From assembly GCA_028702435.1 (NCBI GenBank), contig JAQVOX010000005.1:1-32912 (forward strand): DNA of 32,912 bases. The letters are read 5' to 3'. Under the pieces are notes generated by a model, which was given only the letters and a program-made list of their open reading frames with translations, was not told the DNA's origin and ran no database searches. The DNA is from Desulfotomaculaceae bacterium. GTDB taxonomy: Bacteria; Bacillota; Desulfotomaculia; Desulfotomaculales; Pelotomaculaceae. Both the position numbers and the translations under genes were made by a program. Below, in pieces: positions 5,181-11,932 of this stretch (position 1 is its first letter; the number at the start of each line of letters is the position of its first letter).

Positions 5181-5209
5181 TTTACACTTATTTACATTTA
5201 GACTATAAA
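5181..5209 (+). promoter_or_regulatory. Candidate SigA-type promoter of the dynamin-like cluster
   Basis: TTTACA (5181-5186) - 17 nt - TATAAA (5204-5209), 86 bp upstream of the ATG. Confidence 0.55.
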
Positions 5210-5294
5210 ACATTTATCCGGTAAAAGTCATAAACTGTACCTTAAATAAATATATAAATTATAACAAATTTACTATTAGCTAGGAGCCCTTTTT

Positions 5295-7604
5295 ATGAGC
5301 GCTCTCAATAACTTTATTTTCCAGTCAGAAGAATTAAAGGAGTTTGTTGGTCTGGAATTTAAGCCTTCCATAGCTATTCTAGGTTCATTCAATGCCGGTA
5401 AGTCTACCTTGCTGAATAGGCTACTGGGAGAAAACATCAGCCCGGTAGGAGCACTTCCAACCACTGACTGCCTATTATACTTCAATTATGCGGACTCCTT
5501 CAGCGCAAAGTATACTGGAGCCAGGGGCAAGTATGTATTTAGCGATCGTGCCCGCCTAATCTCTTTCTTAGAGGGGCGGCAGCCCTCCGGCGGACGGGTG
5601 GATATTAAACTTCCGTCTCCGATTCTTAGAAAATGTCGCTTAATTGATACGCCCGGAATAGACGCGTTCTCTCATGAATCGATGCCTCTGGCTCAACAAG
5701 CAGCAAGTGAGGCCACCAGAATTATTTATCTTTTTCACCAGCGGGGCATAGAGAACTTTAGCCGTTTATTCCTGTATAAGCTCGCGTCAATCTGGAAGCA
5801 CAAAAAGTTAGAAGATATATCCTTCTGGCTAAACTGCAGCCTGGGGGAATGCGACGGTACTTCACTTGAAGCAACACGGGCAGAGCTAAGAAAAATCTTT
5901 CTTAGCAAGGTCAGGCTAAATGCTATAAATACTTTAAGACCTGAAAATATCCAGTCAATGTGTCTATTTCTGGAAGTGGAACTTGCCCAGGATTATTTCC
6001 ATAACCTCGCTAAAAAGTTAAAAAAAGTTGATCGCGAAATACCTGCCAGGCTAAAAAAAATCACCAAAATCAAAGATGATTCTCTTTTTTTATCTGAATT
6101 CTGGACGGCACGGGAAACAGCAAAAAAGCTTTTATCCGCAACTCAATCTTTTCATTCTATGCCGCTTATAGCAAAAGAAACAGAGGAACTAATAGAATCA
6201 ATCAATTCCCTCAACGTAATTAAGATAGCCCGCAGTCTCGGTGTGCAGAGGTACCATTTAAAAGCAACGGGCCTCAAGGAAAGTAAAAAATTGATCCTGG
6301 CCCTGATTAACGAATTAATGCAGGAAAAGCAGTTGAATGGTTTGTTGGAACGCTCCAAGCTGAAGACCCTGTCCGGCGAAATTTCAAAAGAACGTTTTAC
6401 AGTAATAGCAGCAGGAGGTTTCTCTACCGGCAAATCCACATTTTTCAATGCGTTAATGAAAGAAAAAATATTACTTACGGGTAGCGGACCGACAACCTCA
6501 TCCATAACCCGAATTTCACATGGCAGTGACAAGATAGCCACTGTCCATCTGCCACTGCAAGTTACCTTGCCCATATATGAAAGTACCGGGGGGATAAATC
6601 TCCTTTGCCGCGAGGAACTGAACACGCTGGGAAAATGGCTTGCCAATGAAAATATCGTTAACTTGGAGGTCTGCCAAGATAGCCGCTACAGACAAGTGGA
6701 TAGATATGAAATGATGGCGTTACTCAGCCAAACCAGGGATTTATTTGCCACGGGGGGTTCTGCCGGGAGTAACCGGGCGCCAGCTGTTTTTAAGCCTGTT
6801 TCCGACAAAGCAATAGCACGAAAAAAAGCACTCCAAATGGTCCGGCTTACGTTTAAGGATTCAGGAACGCAGAAATTTTGCCTATCCGACCCTGCCTCAG
6901 CTAAAGAGTTCAGGGAATTAACTAAACCTGATCACGCCTTCAGGATTGCAGGCATCAACATTGAACACCCCTCCGAGCTCCTTAAAACGGCAGATTTTAT
7001 AGATACACCGGGGTTTGATTCGATCCAAAAACACTATTTCAGAGAAACCTTTGACAGCTTCCGGCAATGCGACGCCTATCTTGTCTTTCTAAATGCCAAG
7101 CATATCCTACATGATTTAGATAGAGAACATTTAAAGCTTATTTTATTACCTCAGACACTTGGTAACTTCAATAAATTTTTCTTCGTTATTAATTTCTCGG
7201 ATACTCTGCCCCCTTCCCAACGGGAAACAGTGGCAAACTACGTCCGAAGAAACTTGACTAATCCGCCCGCTCCTGATATACAGGCCATACCAAACCCAAA
7301 GATATTTCTGATTTCCGCTCTGGGTGGACTCACCGGAACAGACCGTGGCATGGAGCTTTTATTAAAAAACATTGAAGAAGAGATCATGCGTTACCGGGGC
7401 TGGGATTTTTTCAGAAATAAACTGGATGAACTCTACACCATGCTTAATGATTTTTCGGAAAAGATTACTCGTGAATTATTTCAATATAATCTCGCAAACA
7501 GCAGAAGAAAAAATAGACTGCGCCAGGCATTAGATATACTCAGGGAGTCCCGTAGGAAAATAAAAAATATCAGGAGTACTATTTATAACCTCAGGAGGTC
7601 GTGA
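5295..7604 (+). CDS. Dynamin-family protein with two tandem GTPase modules
   Basis: Two P-loops (GSFNAGKSTLLNRLLGE at aa ~30 and GGFSTGKSTFFNALMKE), two G3 motifs (LIDTPGID and FIDTPGFD), switch-I-type threonines (ALPTTD, GPTTSS), helical linker and C-terminus; AGGAG upstream. Confidence 0.88.
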   Translation: MSALNNFIFQSEELKEFVGLEFKPSIAILGSFNAGKSTLLNRLLGENISPVGALPTTDCLLYFNYADSFSAKYTGARGKYVFSDRARLISFLEGRQPSGGRVDIKLPSPILRKCRLIDTPGIDAFSHESMPLAQQAASEATRIIYLFHQRGIENFSRLFLYKLASIWKHKKLEDISFWLNCSLGECDGTSLEATRAELRKIFLSKVRLNAINTLRPENIQSMCLFLEVELAQDYFHNLAKKLKKVDREIPARLKKITKIKDDSLFLSEFWTARETAKKLLSATQSFHSMPLIAKETEELIESINSLNVIKIARSLGVQRYHLKATGLKESKKLILALINELMQEKQLNGLLERSKLKTLSGEISKERFTVIAAGGFSTGKSTFFNALMKEKILLTGSGPTTSSITRISHGSDKIATVHLPLQVTLPIYESTGGINLLCREELNTLGKWLANENIVNLEVCQDSRYRQVDRYEMMALLSQTRDLFATGGSAGSNRAPAVFKPVSDKAIARKKALQMVRLTFKDSGTQKFCLSDPASAKEFRELTKPDHAFRIAGINIEHPSELLKTADFIDTPGFDSIQKHYFRETFDSFRQCDAYLVFLNAKHILHDLDREHLKLILLPQTLGNFNKFFFVINFSDTLPPSQRETVANYVRRNLTNPPAPDIQAIPNPKIFLISALGGLTGTDRGMELLLKNIEEEIMRYRGWDFFRNKLDELYTMLNDFSEKITRELFQYNLANSRRKNRLRQALDILRESRRKIKNIRSTIYNLRRS

Positions 7605-7608
7605 GTAA

Positions 7609-7803
7609 GTGGAAAACGCCAGATTGCTGGATGAACGGCTGCGCAAAATTATCCTTGAGGTTAGCAGCCATACCGGAAGGGAAATAAAAAAAAACTTGCT
7701 CCAGGATGTTGATGCAGGCGTTAACAAAGCAGTGCAAAAAAACCTTCAACAAGAAACTGTTAGAATACTTGCGCTACTAAAAAGCGCCATTGATAAATTA
7801 TAA
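7609..7803 (+). CDS. Small helical/coiled-coil protein (64 aa) in the dynamin cluster
   Basis: GTG start 4 nt after the dynamin stop, with AGGAGG upstream; amphipathic helical composition (MENARLLDERLRKIILEVSSHTGREIKKNLLQDVD...). Confidence 0.7.
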   Translation: MENARLLDERLRKIILEVSSHTGREIKKNLLQDVDAGVNKAVQKNLQQETVRILALLKSAIDKL

Positions 7804-7819
7804 CTGCAGGAGGGGTAAA

Positions 7820-8119
7820 ATGGATATTAAACTGGAAAATATGAGCGGTGAAAGAAATGGCGATGTACTAATCCGGCAAATGTTGGCGGAAATCCTTACC
7901 GGCCTGAAAATTAAACTGGTGCAGCCCGTGCTGGAGGAAAATAATAAAATTGCCGGTCAGTTAAAAGATTTGCAGGAACAGGAGCAGAAAGATATAGCAG
8001 CCCTGAAAGAAAATCTAGCGGCACTAGACGTCCGGATGCAGCAACTACCTCTAGTCATCCTGACAGCCCTTAGGGATGCCATTAATCAAGTCGGTGAGGG
8101 CAACCAAAATGAAGATTGA
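7820..8119 (+). CDS. Small coiled-coil protein (~99 aa) in the dynamin cluster
   Basis: ATG at 7820 preceded by AGGAGGGG; MDIKLENMSGERNGDVLIRQMLAEILTGLKIKLVQPVLEENNKIAGQLKDLQEQEQKDIAALKENL... heptad-like. Confidence 0.75.
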   Translation: MDIKLENMSGERNGDVLIRQMLAEILTGLKIKLVQPVLEENNKIAGQLKDLQEQEQKDIAALKENLAALDVRMQQLPLVILTALRDAINQVGEGNQNED

Positions 8120-8366
8120 GCCGGCTGATCAACGGGCTGAGATAGTCAGTGCACTGGCCTCAACAATCCAGGGAAAAATTATGATGCCGGCTGAGGAAAA
8201 GACAGCTACCCTTAAGGATGCCATTAATCAAGCGAATGAAAGGATCGATTACCTTGAACAAAAATTATTTACTCTAACCACCGCACACGGACGGACAAAG
8301 GCCATGACAATAGTATTAGTTTTAGGTCTGTTGATCTTATTTTCCGTTCAGATGATTTACTTTTAA
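8109..8366 (+). CDS. Small tail-anchored coiled-coil membrane protein (85 aa)
   Basis: ATG at 8109 overlaps the upstream ORF stop by 11 nt; coiled coil followed by C-terminal TM TKAMTIVLVLGLLILFSVQMIYF ending at the stop. Confidence 0.72.
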   Translation: MKIEPADQRAEIVSALASTIQGKIMMPAEEKTATLKDAINQANERIDYLEQKLFTLTTAHGRTKAMTIVLVLGLLILFSVQMIYF

Positions 8367-8371
8367 AAAGT

Positions 8372-8689
8372 CTATTCTTTTTTAATCCCCCGGCCGGACT
8401 TCATTAAAGTGTAAACAAAAGTAGTCGCTGCTAAAATAACCAGTACCTTGATAATAAAATTGGTCTTCTCGGATTTAAAACCCTCTTTTTCTTTTCTAAT
8501 TTCCACTACAGGGTCTAGTCTTAAGTCATAATAATTACCTTGATTCTCCATCTTATACTGTAGGTTCTCAAGTTTTACCATTTTCTCTTCATGCTTTGAC
8601 ATACTGGTCATAAAGCTTACCATCTGAATACCGAGGAAAGCTAAGGCAAATAAAATAAGCAACAGTCGGGAAAAACGAGAGTTAGTCAT
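8372..8689 (-). CDS. Small protein with N- and C-terminal TM helices flanking a charged coiled segment
   Basis: MTNSRFSRLLLILFALAFLGIQMVSFM...KSEKTNFIIKVLVILAATTFVYTLMKSGRG; convergent with, and 5 bp from, the tail-anchored ORF; AGGAGA upstream. Confidence 0.65.
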   Translation of the reverse strand: MTNSRFSRLLLILFALAFLGIQMVSFMTSMSKHEEKMVKLENLQYKMENQGNYYDLRLDPVVEIRKEKEGFKSEKTNFIIKVLVILAATTFVYTLMKSGRGIKKE

Positions 8690-8860: not shown

Positions 8861-9841
8861 ATGGAATATTTAATAGAAAATATGACTACTCAACTTCGCT
8901 GGATAAAAAATTGCCAAATTCTTAGCCCGGGCCATGCTGCAGACGGTGCGATTAAAAAGTATCCTAACCAGGGCTGGATCAATCCCTATTTTGCTAATTT
9001 TGCGGCAACAGCTATGTTGGAAGCCCCTGTGAACTACCCTTTGGTCAAGCGCTATTTAAACTGGTATCTCCGCCATCTTGAAAACAACGGAACCATCCTC
9101 GACTATCACTATGACGATCAATTACTATTCAAAACAGCCGGACCGGATTCAGAAGACTCTTATGCCGGCACTTATCTCTCCCTGGCCAGCTCATACCATT
9201 ACCGGACCGGGCAAACAGACTGGGTTAGGAAAAACCTCCCCCGCTTAAAAAAAATAGCCGGGGTGATCATAAACCTGATGGACCGGGACGGTCTTACCTT
9301 TGCCCTGGCCGGCTACCATGTGAAATATCTCATGGACAACTGCGAAGCCTACCGGGGTTTAAAGGATTTCGCTAATCTTCTGCATTCGATCGGCGACCAG
9401 GATGCGGCTGTCTATCAATCTAAAGCCGGTGCTATTGCCGCTGGTATTGAAAAAATGCTCTGGAACCCGCGTACCAGGTGCTACCATGCCAGCAAAACAG
9501 GCTGGTTCAGAAACCGAATCCGCCTAAGAAAATTTTATCCGGACGCAGCCTGTCAGGTTTTTCCTGTGCTATATGGATTGCTCAAGCCTGGTTCAAAGCG
9601 GGCAGACAGCCTTTATAACTTATTTAACAATTTCCAGCCAGATTGGGTTATTATTAAGCCACCGGATTTTCCATGGATGCTTCTGGGTTATTACGCCTGC
9701 CTGCACGGTGATTTCAAACGCGCGCTTGAGAAAATTAAGCAAGCTAACAAAGTCTATATCGAACCGCAGTCAGGGAACTGGTACTGTGCCGAGGCAGCCT
9801 TTTACGTCTTGACCTGTGTAAAATTAATTATGTCCAAATAA
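8861..9841 (+). CDS. (alpha/alpha)6 six-hairpin glycosidase-like protein (GH15/amylo-glucosidase-like)
   Basis: GPDSEDSYAGTYLSLASSYHYRTG, YLMDNCEAYRGLKDFANLL, PQSGNWYCAEAAFYVL; adjacent to a GH15 gene; ATG with AAGGAG upstream. Confidence 0.65.
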   Translation: MEYLIENMTTQLRWIKNCQILSPGHAADGAIKKYPNQGWINPYFANFAATAMLEAPVNYPLVKRYLNWYLRHLENNGTILDYHYDDQLLFKTAGPDSEDSYAGTYLSLASSYHYRTGQTDWVRKNLPRLKKIAGVIINLMDRDGLTFALAGYHVKYLMDNCEAYRGLKDFANLLHSIGDQDAAVYQSKAGAIAAGIEKMLWNPRTRCYHASKTGWFRNRIRLRKFYPDAACQVFPVLYGLLKPGSKRADSLYNLFNNFQPDWVIIKPPDFPWMLLGYYACLHGDFKRALEKIKQANKVYIEPQSGNWYCAEAAFYVLTCVKLIMSK

Positions 9842-9913
9842 ATGGCTTAAATTGTATATACATTTATACTATTCCCCGGACCTAAGCCGGGCATAATATG
9901 AAAACTATGATGA

Positions 9914-11932
9914 GTGGTGGTGAAAAAAATAATTAATCCGAAACCCCATCCAGAAATGCCGGAAGCTATTATCGGGAACTCAAAAATGCTGGCCTCGATC
10001 AGAGACAATGGAGAGATTTACAAGCTTTTTTGGCCACAAATTGATTATGGCCAGCACCTTGGACACTTCTGGCCGGGGATCAGGCTGTCCTTGCCGGAAG
10101 GACAAAGTTTCACTAAGTGGTTCCACCTAAATATATGGAGGTCTACGCAACGCTACCTGGAGGATACCAATATATTTGAAACGGAAATGTCCAGCCAGAC
10201 TCATAATCTTAAAGCGGTCCAACATGATTTCATTCTTCCAGACCGGGACATCCTGGTTAGACACTATATATTAACAAATAGCGGCAAGAAACCCGAAAAG
10301 CTTACATTTATGGTCTATTGCGCCTTTGAAATTGAGGAATCCACTCTGTACGACGACGCTCAAATCGATTTTTCAAATAATTCCCTCACCTTTTCCCGGA
10401 GAAATATCTATCTGGCTTTAACCGGGGCTGGTTATCCCTTGAGCGGCTACCAATGTGGCAGGCGAGGCACCCACTCCGACCCTTTTCAGGATGCCTCCAG
10501 AGGTGTGCTCCGGGGTGGCAGTGACAATATCCGGCATAGTTCCGGAAGCCTGGACTGGGACATGGGTGAACTAAAACCGGGAGAATCAAAGAGCCTAACC
10601 CTTTACCTGGCAGCAGGTTCAGGGCAGGAAATAGTAAGAGCACTACTCGCTGAGGCCACTGCCAAAAAAGGTTGCGACTGGCTGGAACATACGAAACAGT
10701 ACTGGTACAATTGGCTCGGGAAAGGAATGGCAAAGGCAAGCGAAAATGTGGACAACAGAGCGTTCCACCGGTCACTTTTGGCCATGAAGCTAATGTCAAA
10801 CAAGGAAACAGGCGCATCAATCGCCGCACCGGAGTTTGATCCTTACTATCTGATGTGCGGCGGCTATGGTTACTGCTGGCCACGTGACGCTGTTTATGTT
10901 GCCGCTGCTTTCGATGAAGCTGGTTATCATCGTGTCGCCGCAAAATTTTACGATTTTACCTGCTTAGTCCAGAGAAAAGAAGGTGGCTGGGAACAGCGCT
11001 ATTTCACGGACGGCTCGGTGGCGCCGAGTTGGGGCAAGCAAATTGACCAGATCGGTGCTGTATTATGGGGTTACGGTCACCACTACGGGCTCACCGGAGA
11101 TAATGATTTTCTGGACCGGATCTGGACCTCCCTGGACCTGGGAGCAAGTTTCCTCACTAATAACCTGGAAACAAACGGCCTCCCTGTCCCCAGCTTTGAC
11201 CCGTGGGAAGATGAATACGGCCAGGGCACTTATTCCGCGACAGCGGTATACGGTGGCCTGGTGGCAGCGAGCGAAATTGCATTGATAAAAGGTAACAAAG
11301 AAGCCGCGGAAAGGTGGCGCCTGGCAGCTGAAACAGTTAGAGAAGGTATACTGAATAACCAGTGGTCACCCAGACACAATAGATTCCTGCGCGGCGTCAA
11401 CAGAAGGGTTCACCAGGATACTTACAATCATGCCGCTTATGAAGGAAAAAAAACCTTCACCGGTACCGATCCCGCCGGTATTTACCCGACCTACTGGGTT
11501 GGAGAAGATGAACGGGTGGACTCAGCCCTATTAGGACTCGCCTTTCCATTCCGGGTACTAGAACCAAATGATGAAAAGCTGCAAGCCACCGTTCAGGCCA
11601 TTGAAGAACAGCTATGGAACAACAACACCGGTGGCCTGCATCGCTATACCGGTGATAGTTACCGGGGTGGAAACCCCTGGCTGATTACCACCTTTTGGTT
11701 GGCGATCTATTACTGCATGTCCGGAAAGCGTGACCGGGCCGAAGTACTCTACCGCTGGTGTCTGGCGCAGGCAAACCGTCATTTGCTTCTTCCCGAGCAG
11801 ATCGACAAAAACCGTGGCGGTCCAGTCTGGGTAATGCCCCTGAACTGGTCTCATGCCATGCTCGTGCTGGCCAGACTGGCGCTAGAGGACCATTTGAGTA
11901 TTATTAAACCGGCAAATCAAACCACCAGCTAG
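9914..11932 (+). CDS. Glycoside hydrolase family 15 / glucoamylase-like protein
   Basis: Diagnostic GH15 blocks: GGYGYCWPRDAVYVAAAFDEAGYHRVA, WEQRYFTDGSVAPSWGKQIDQIGAVLWGYGHHY, PSFDPWEDEYGQGTYSATAVYGGL, GGNPWLITTFWLAIYY. Confidence 0.88.
   Translation: MVVKKIINPKPHPEMPEAIIGNSKMLASIRDNGEIYKLFWPQIDYGQHLGHFWPGIRLSLPEGQSFTKWFHLNIWRSTQRYLEDTNIFETEMSSQTHNLKAVQHDFILPDRDILVRHYILTNSGKKPEKLTFMVYCAFEIEESTLYDDAQIDFSNNSLTFSRRNIYLALTGAGYPLSGYQCGRRGTHSDPFQDASRGVLRGGSDNIRHSSGSLDWDMGELKPGESKSLTLYLAAGSGQEIVRALLAEATAKKGCDWLEHTKQYWYNWLGKGMAKASENVDNRAFHRSLLAMKLMSNKETGASIAAPEFDPYYLMCGGYGYCWPRDAVYVAAAFDEAGYHRVAAKFYDFTCLVQRKEGGWEQRYFTDGSVAPSWGKQIDQIGAVLWGYGHHYGLTGDNDFLDRIWTSLDLGASFLTNNLETNGLPVPSFDPWEDEYGQGTYSATAVYGGLVAASEIALIKGNKEAAERWRLAAETVREGILNNQWSPRHNRFLRGVNRRVHQDTYNHAAYEGKKTFTGTDPAGIYPTYWVGEDERVDSALLGLAFPFRVLEPNDEKLQATVQAIEEQLWNNNTGGLHRYTGDSYRGGNPWLITTFWLAIYYCMSGKRDRAEVLYRWCLAQANRHLLLPEQIDKNRGGPVWVMPLNWSHAMLVLARLALEDHLSIIKPANQTTS

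Follow-up and report, generated by a model that had tools for sequence, protein, structure and literature searches.

A tandem dynamin and three small genes encoded behind it, here called A, B and C, form a four-gene unit that is confined to one bacterial order. The linkage and distribution of these genes support this well. A further reading, to which we give a probability of about 0.5, is that the four genes make up one functional unit, in which the recruitment or regulation of the soluble tandem dynamin falls to the tail-anchored protein C together with A and B. The locus lies in the window, that is, the whole stretch of 32,912 nt that was analysed, which comes from contig 89 of a draft genome (G000; 1.97 Mb in 185 contigs). 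The features of the locus and the domains of the dynamin are listed below.

5227..5256, + strand: promoter-like or operator element, GTCATAAA-N12-TAAATATATA, about 38 nt 5′ of the dynamin start
5295..7604, + strand: tandem dynamin, 769 aa, with two Pfam Dynamin_N matches
Dynamin residues about 20-215: GTPase 1
Dynamin residues 216-307: neck helices of GTPase 1
Dynamin residues about 366-680: GTPase 2
Dynamin residues 684-768: neck of GTPase 2, a two-helix tail
7609..7803, + strand: small gene A, 64 aa, soluble; GTG start, SD AGGAGG, 4-nt gap after the dynamin gene
7820..8119, + strand: small gene B, 99 aa, soluble helical protein; ATG start, SD GGAGG
8109..8366, + strand: small gene C, 85 aa, C-terminal TM helix; ATG start, 11-nt overlap with B
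8372..8689, - strand: gene D, 105 aa, two hydrophobic stretches, convergent; a neighbour outside the module

The dynamin gene and genes A, B and C together span positions 5295-8366, their ends being close or overlapping. Inspection of the locus agreed with the original description of three tiny ORFs with a 4-nt gap, SD sites and an 11-nt overlap. The interval that had been proposed, 5181-8689, included the promoter-like element at 5227-5256, with coding beginning only at 5295. The genes ilvE, ilvD and ilvB lie 5′ of the dynamin gene on the opposite strand, while a GH15-like gene and a fatty-acid synthesis cluster are found further 3′ of the module. The 769-aa protein was the sole clear dynamin of the source genome, the other Pfam matches corresponding to short pieces in other frames.

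The linkage between the dynamin and the small genes was surveyed in 113 genomes of the order, using a threshold of E ≤ 1e-30 for the dynamin. Gene A was present in 57 of these genomes and the dynamin in exactly the same 57, with one module in each. The two genes lay directly one behind the other, within 1 kb and on the same strand, in 56 of the 57; in the 57th (G068) they were located on two contigs, A beginning at base 191 of its contig. Profiles derived from the window proteins identified B and then C, in that order, after dynamin-A at all of the 35 loci read, which belong to six families. These findings on gene neighbourhood sustain the earlier proposal of a multi-component dynamin system. 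Further, clustering of neighbouring ORFs showed dynamin, A, B and C to be the only genes common to all six families, the other neighbours being variable. Both B and C were single-copy and confined to the module (20 genomes tested for B, 10 for C). No dynamin of this kind was detected at E ≤ 1e-40 in about 385 genomes sampled evenly across the phylum outside the order; a search for A in about 385 genomes outside the order gave one match, with an E value of 8e-4, which was taken as chance. A plasmid collection yielded distant partial matches only, and no match for A was found among viral contigs. In the dynamin tree, and in a tree built from A, B and C together, every family formed one group, with a bootstrap support of 96-100% each. 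Since both trees recover each family, the unit has been inherited together, with losses.

Pfam analysis of the 769-aa protein identified Dynamin_N (PF00350) twice, above the cut-off (E 4e-35), in line with the two GTPase units expected. A P-loop and a DxxG motif are present in both units (GSFNAGKST/DTPG and GGFSTGKST/DTPG), and all four motifs are conserved. In the AlphaFold2 model (mean pLDDT 79.8; 22 sequences), a short helical neck accompanies each of the two GTPase domains. A Foldseek search with this model retrieved Campylobacter DLP1/2, BDLP and mitofusin, with E values of 1e-11 to 1e-13. As modelled, the protein thus has a dynamin fold, consisting of GTPase domain and helical neck, and GTP hydrolysis and membrane remodelling would be its predicted functions. 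Neither a trunk nor a paddle was present in the model of the window dynamin, and the protein had no TM segment, so the description of a dynamin with short helices and no TM or paddle holds. When the dynamin set was scanned for TM segments, there were two exceptions: a borderline window in one case and, in the other, an upstream extension of the frame. Cytosolic dynamin-like proteins (DLPs) can bind membranes by means of amphipathic loops, which are invisible to hydrophobicity scans, a point that weighs against the recruitment reading.

The G4 site, canonically N/TKxD, reads INFSD or INFAD in GTPase 2, while GTPase 1 has FW(L/I)NC instead; the base specificity or the activity of GTPase 1 may therefore be unusual. 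Residues 143-190 of GTPase 1 include two conserved signatures, YLFHQRGI and FW(L/I)NC...DGTSLE, although FWxNC is absent from three dynamins of family f5. At one locus in a closed genome (L058; G012:C1:2140127-2142417), the dynamin frame breaks near residue 424 to give two frames that overlap, the promoter element and genes A, B and C being intact; the break is either a sequencing error or a true frameshift.

The family of the window has a short form of the dynamin. A longer form, with a helical C-terminal extension of 190-250 aa, is found in families f12, f16 and f18. One such long dynamin (G047; 976 aa) was modelled with a pLDDT of 76, its extension forming a helical trunk, and it matched BDLP over 776 columns. 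A, B and C accompany the short and long forms alike. Because A, B and C are also encoded beside the long dynamins, the small proteins are not a mere replacement of a lost trunk, and the simple rule suggested originally, that adaptors are there because the dynamin lacks a stalk, is not supported.

Each of the small proteins of the module has conserved sequence motifs. A begins with a near-invariant N-terminal signature, MENARxLDERLRKIIxEVSxxTGxEIKK, in which residues A4, R5, L7, R10, L11, I14 and G23 are invariant. B contains the motif ILxGLKxKxVQPVLEEN, an invariant proline 36 and a conserved C-terminal PLVILAALRDAINQAGG, and C contains an ELVxSLAxTI...PAE motif. Between relatives, the dN/dS values of A, B and C were 0.09-0.37. 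These values, and conservation at 35 of 35 loci, indicate that A, B and C are real genes. In the family of the window, B and C overlap by 11 nt at almost every locus. No TM segments were found in A or B, both of which are helical by sequence pattern. As had been anticipated for the 85-aa ORF, C ends in a TM helix, which was present at all 35 loci with 0-8 residues beyond the TM window. With a single TM helix at its extreme C-terminus, C is, as judged from its sequence, a tail-anchored protein, most likely inserted with its N-terminus in the cytoplasm. At every locus, the module has no strongly hydrophobic segment other than the one in C.

The three small proteins had also been described as coiled coils. 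When averaged over the family, the heptad patterning of A, B and C exceeded that of shuffled sequences, in a crude test with related sequences; among the window proteins taken alone, only C stood out. No family matching any of the three was found in Pfam, NCBIfam or PADLOC, nor did the PDB yield a relative of A or B above chance. The Pfam matches obtained for A, B and C were limited to single members and fell below the cut-off, and were taken as chance. Among the three, only the profiles of B and C resemble each other, and weakly (probability 14); we do not claim that the small proteins share an origin.

A conserved two-part element precedes the dynamin operon. Its family consensus is GTCATAAA-N12-TTAATATAT, the copy in the window ending in TAAATATATA, and in most loci it is located 23-71 nt 5′ of the dynamin start. 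A score of at least 14 of 17 was reached in 24 of 32 upstream regions (0-3 in shuffled sequences), and the 12-nt spacer is dominant and near-constant across families. A search of 25 family genomes gave 22 exact matches, of which 17 stand 5′ of the dynamin gene; most of the others precede unrelated genes. The element is thus nearly private to the dynamin operon. None of the sigma-factor consensus sequences tried fitted it, which makes it either an operator or a promoter of an unusual kind. An AT-rich stretch resembling it precedes an ArsR-like regulator gene at three loci (L121, L130 and L131). A wider regulon was considered and rejected: of the five other exact matches, three precede an ArsR-like gene, their AT-rich stretch being attributed to chance similarity, and the remaining two gave no lead.

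Several known systems resemble parts of the module. B. subtilis DynA (NF052648) likewise combines two dynamin GTPase units in one chain; of the dynamin models in NCBIfam, it lay nearest (E 1.6e-29). However, the window dynamin scored 102 bits against an equivalog cut-off of 1600, with partial coverage, and has 769 aa and no trunk, whereas the DynA model has 1187 positions. We know of no counterpart of A, B or C for B. subtilis DynA. The best match in both structure and sequence was Campylobacter jejuni DLP1/DLP2 (5owv, 5oxf), in which the GTPase pairing is heterotypic; these are, however, two separate full-length DLPs with trunks, and small tail-anchored partner genes are not reported in the accessible portion of the paper (PMC6104087). 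Nostoc BDLP, SynDLP and IniA share the dynamin fold with a neck, and use a paddle or trunk tip of their own to contact the membrane (PMC6715688). In contrast, the window dynamin lacks a BDLP-type trunk and membrane-inserting paddle, having no TM segment and, in the model, only short necks. LeoA/LeoBC (Eleos) are also dynamin-like GTPases encoded in an operon, but the LeoA and LeoBC models matched only in part and the gene content is unlike; instead of a LeoA plus LeoBC gene pair, a single tandem gene is present, with no second dynamin among its neighbours. In eukaryotes, according to the part of the literature consulted, the tail-anchored proteins FIS1 and MFF recruit soluble DRP1 (PMC9377713). 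The module likewise pairs a soluble dynamin with a short tail-anchored helical protein, a likeness that we treat as an analogy, no sequence kinship being claimed.

On the recruitment reading, the C-terminal helix would hold C in the cytoplasmic membrane, its helical part lying on the cytoplasmic side, and A and B would either connect C with the soluble tandem dynamin or make the short neck bundles of the dynamin complete. Once GTP drives the two GTPase domains to pair, they could tether or reshape the membrane where C is located. The physiological role, for which our guess is membrane maintenance or stress repair, is inferred, as are the physical complex, the direction of recruitment and the remodelling of membranes. 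By analogy, adaptor-recruited dynamins of the kind that cut mitochondria may have a bacterial version in this unit. It is a tentative proposal that the module represents a class of dynamins that delegates membrane targeting to small proteins including a tail-anchored adaptor, with a nearly private promoter element, and that this class is an independently evolved counterpart of MFF/FIS1-DRP1.

Some of the same observations would fit A, B and C acting as regulators or structural pieces that control assembly or GTPase activity, or form a 'stalk' of separate chains, while the dynamin finds membranes alone. A and B are helical by pattern and have no TM segment, the model gives the dynamin short necks only, and a partner chain controls activity and assembly in Campylobacter DLPs, as described in the available text of PMC6104087. 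The location of the sole strongly hydrophobic segment of the module in C, at every locus, argues against this arrangement, which we regard as rather unlikely. The small proteins might also be pieces of a missing dynamin trunk separated by gene fission, an idea to which the 190-250 extra C-terminal residues of the f12, f16 and f18 dynamins lend some appeal; it is refuted, however, by the co-occurrence of these long dynamins with complete A, B and C genes, which they themselves precede, and we give it almost no weight.

Two other explanations concern the role of the unit. A factor for sporulation or cell division of spore-forming clostridia, comparable to Streptomyces DynA/DynB, would suit a spore-forming order (Spo0A was found in 105 of the 113 genomes) and the CotF-like coat gene that lies near the module in several family members. 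However, about half of the genomes bearing Spo0A lack the module (57 modules against 105 Spo0A), and no common sporulation sigma consensus was found upstream. This difference makes sporulation unlikely as the sole role; the co-occurrence with Spo0A was discarded as evidence of a link since it does not discriminate. The module had been thought to be an accessory or phage-defence cassette, and a system against phages or membrane damage, resembling that of B. subtilis DynA or of LeoA/LeoBC, would agree with a weak PADLOC match to LeoA (68 bits) and with B. subtilis DynA, also a tandem protein, conferring population-level phage resistance and membrane surveillance (PMC8844932, part of which was available). 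The findings do not support this view: the LeoBC partner is absent and the PADLOC match covers the P-loop region, the module occurs as a single copy in one order with family-wise inheritance, its context is one of housekeeping genes (ilvBDE, fab genes, ylbJ), and no close plasmid or viral relatives were found among the collections searched. A phage-defence role is thus improbable; membrane repair as such may still be a role of the unit.

To our knowledge, bacterial dynamins work alone or as dynamin pairs. In the open-access literature, no report was found of small dynamin partners like A, B and C, or of dynamin work on Pelotomaculum. If the recruitment reading is true, an obligate set of three partners beside a trunkless tandem dynamin would be another way of bringing a dynamin to the membrane. 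The module would also provide a context for three families of 'hypothetical' proteins from an order of anaerobes that matters ecologically, and the four-gene unit is compact enough to be expressed and tested as a whole.

The convergent gene D, which encodes a protein with two hydrophobic stretches, had been proposed as a further part of the system. It was not found in the other five families; in many relatives it lies 0.8-3.4 kb from the module, beyond other genes, and in one genome (G011) it is on another contig. A complete genome from another family, one with neither the dynamin nor A, also contains a copy of D (G036:C17:22892-23179), indicating that D has a role of its own. Its absence, its separation and this copy ruled out D as a component of the module. 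At four loci (L044, L045, L046 and L071), a spore-coat gene named CotF-like by resemblance lies between C and D. In the window, D is followed by two adjoining glycoside-hydrolase-like genes (8861-11932) coding for 326 and 672 aa; the 672-aa product has a GH15 domain, and the 326-aa product matches MGH1-like GH weakly.
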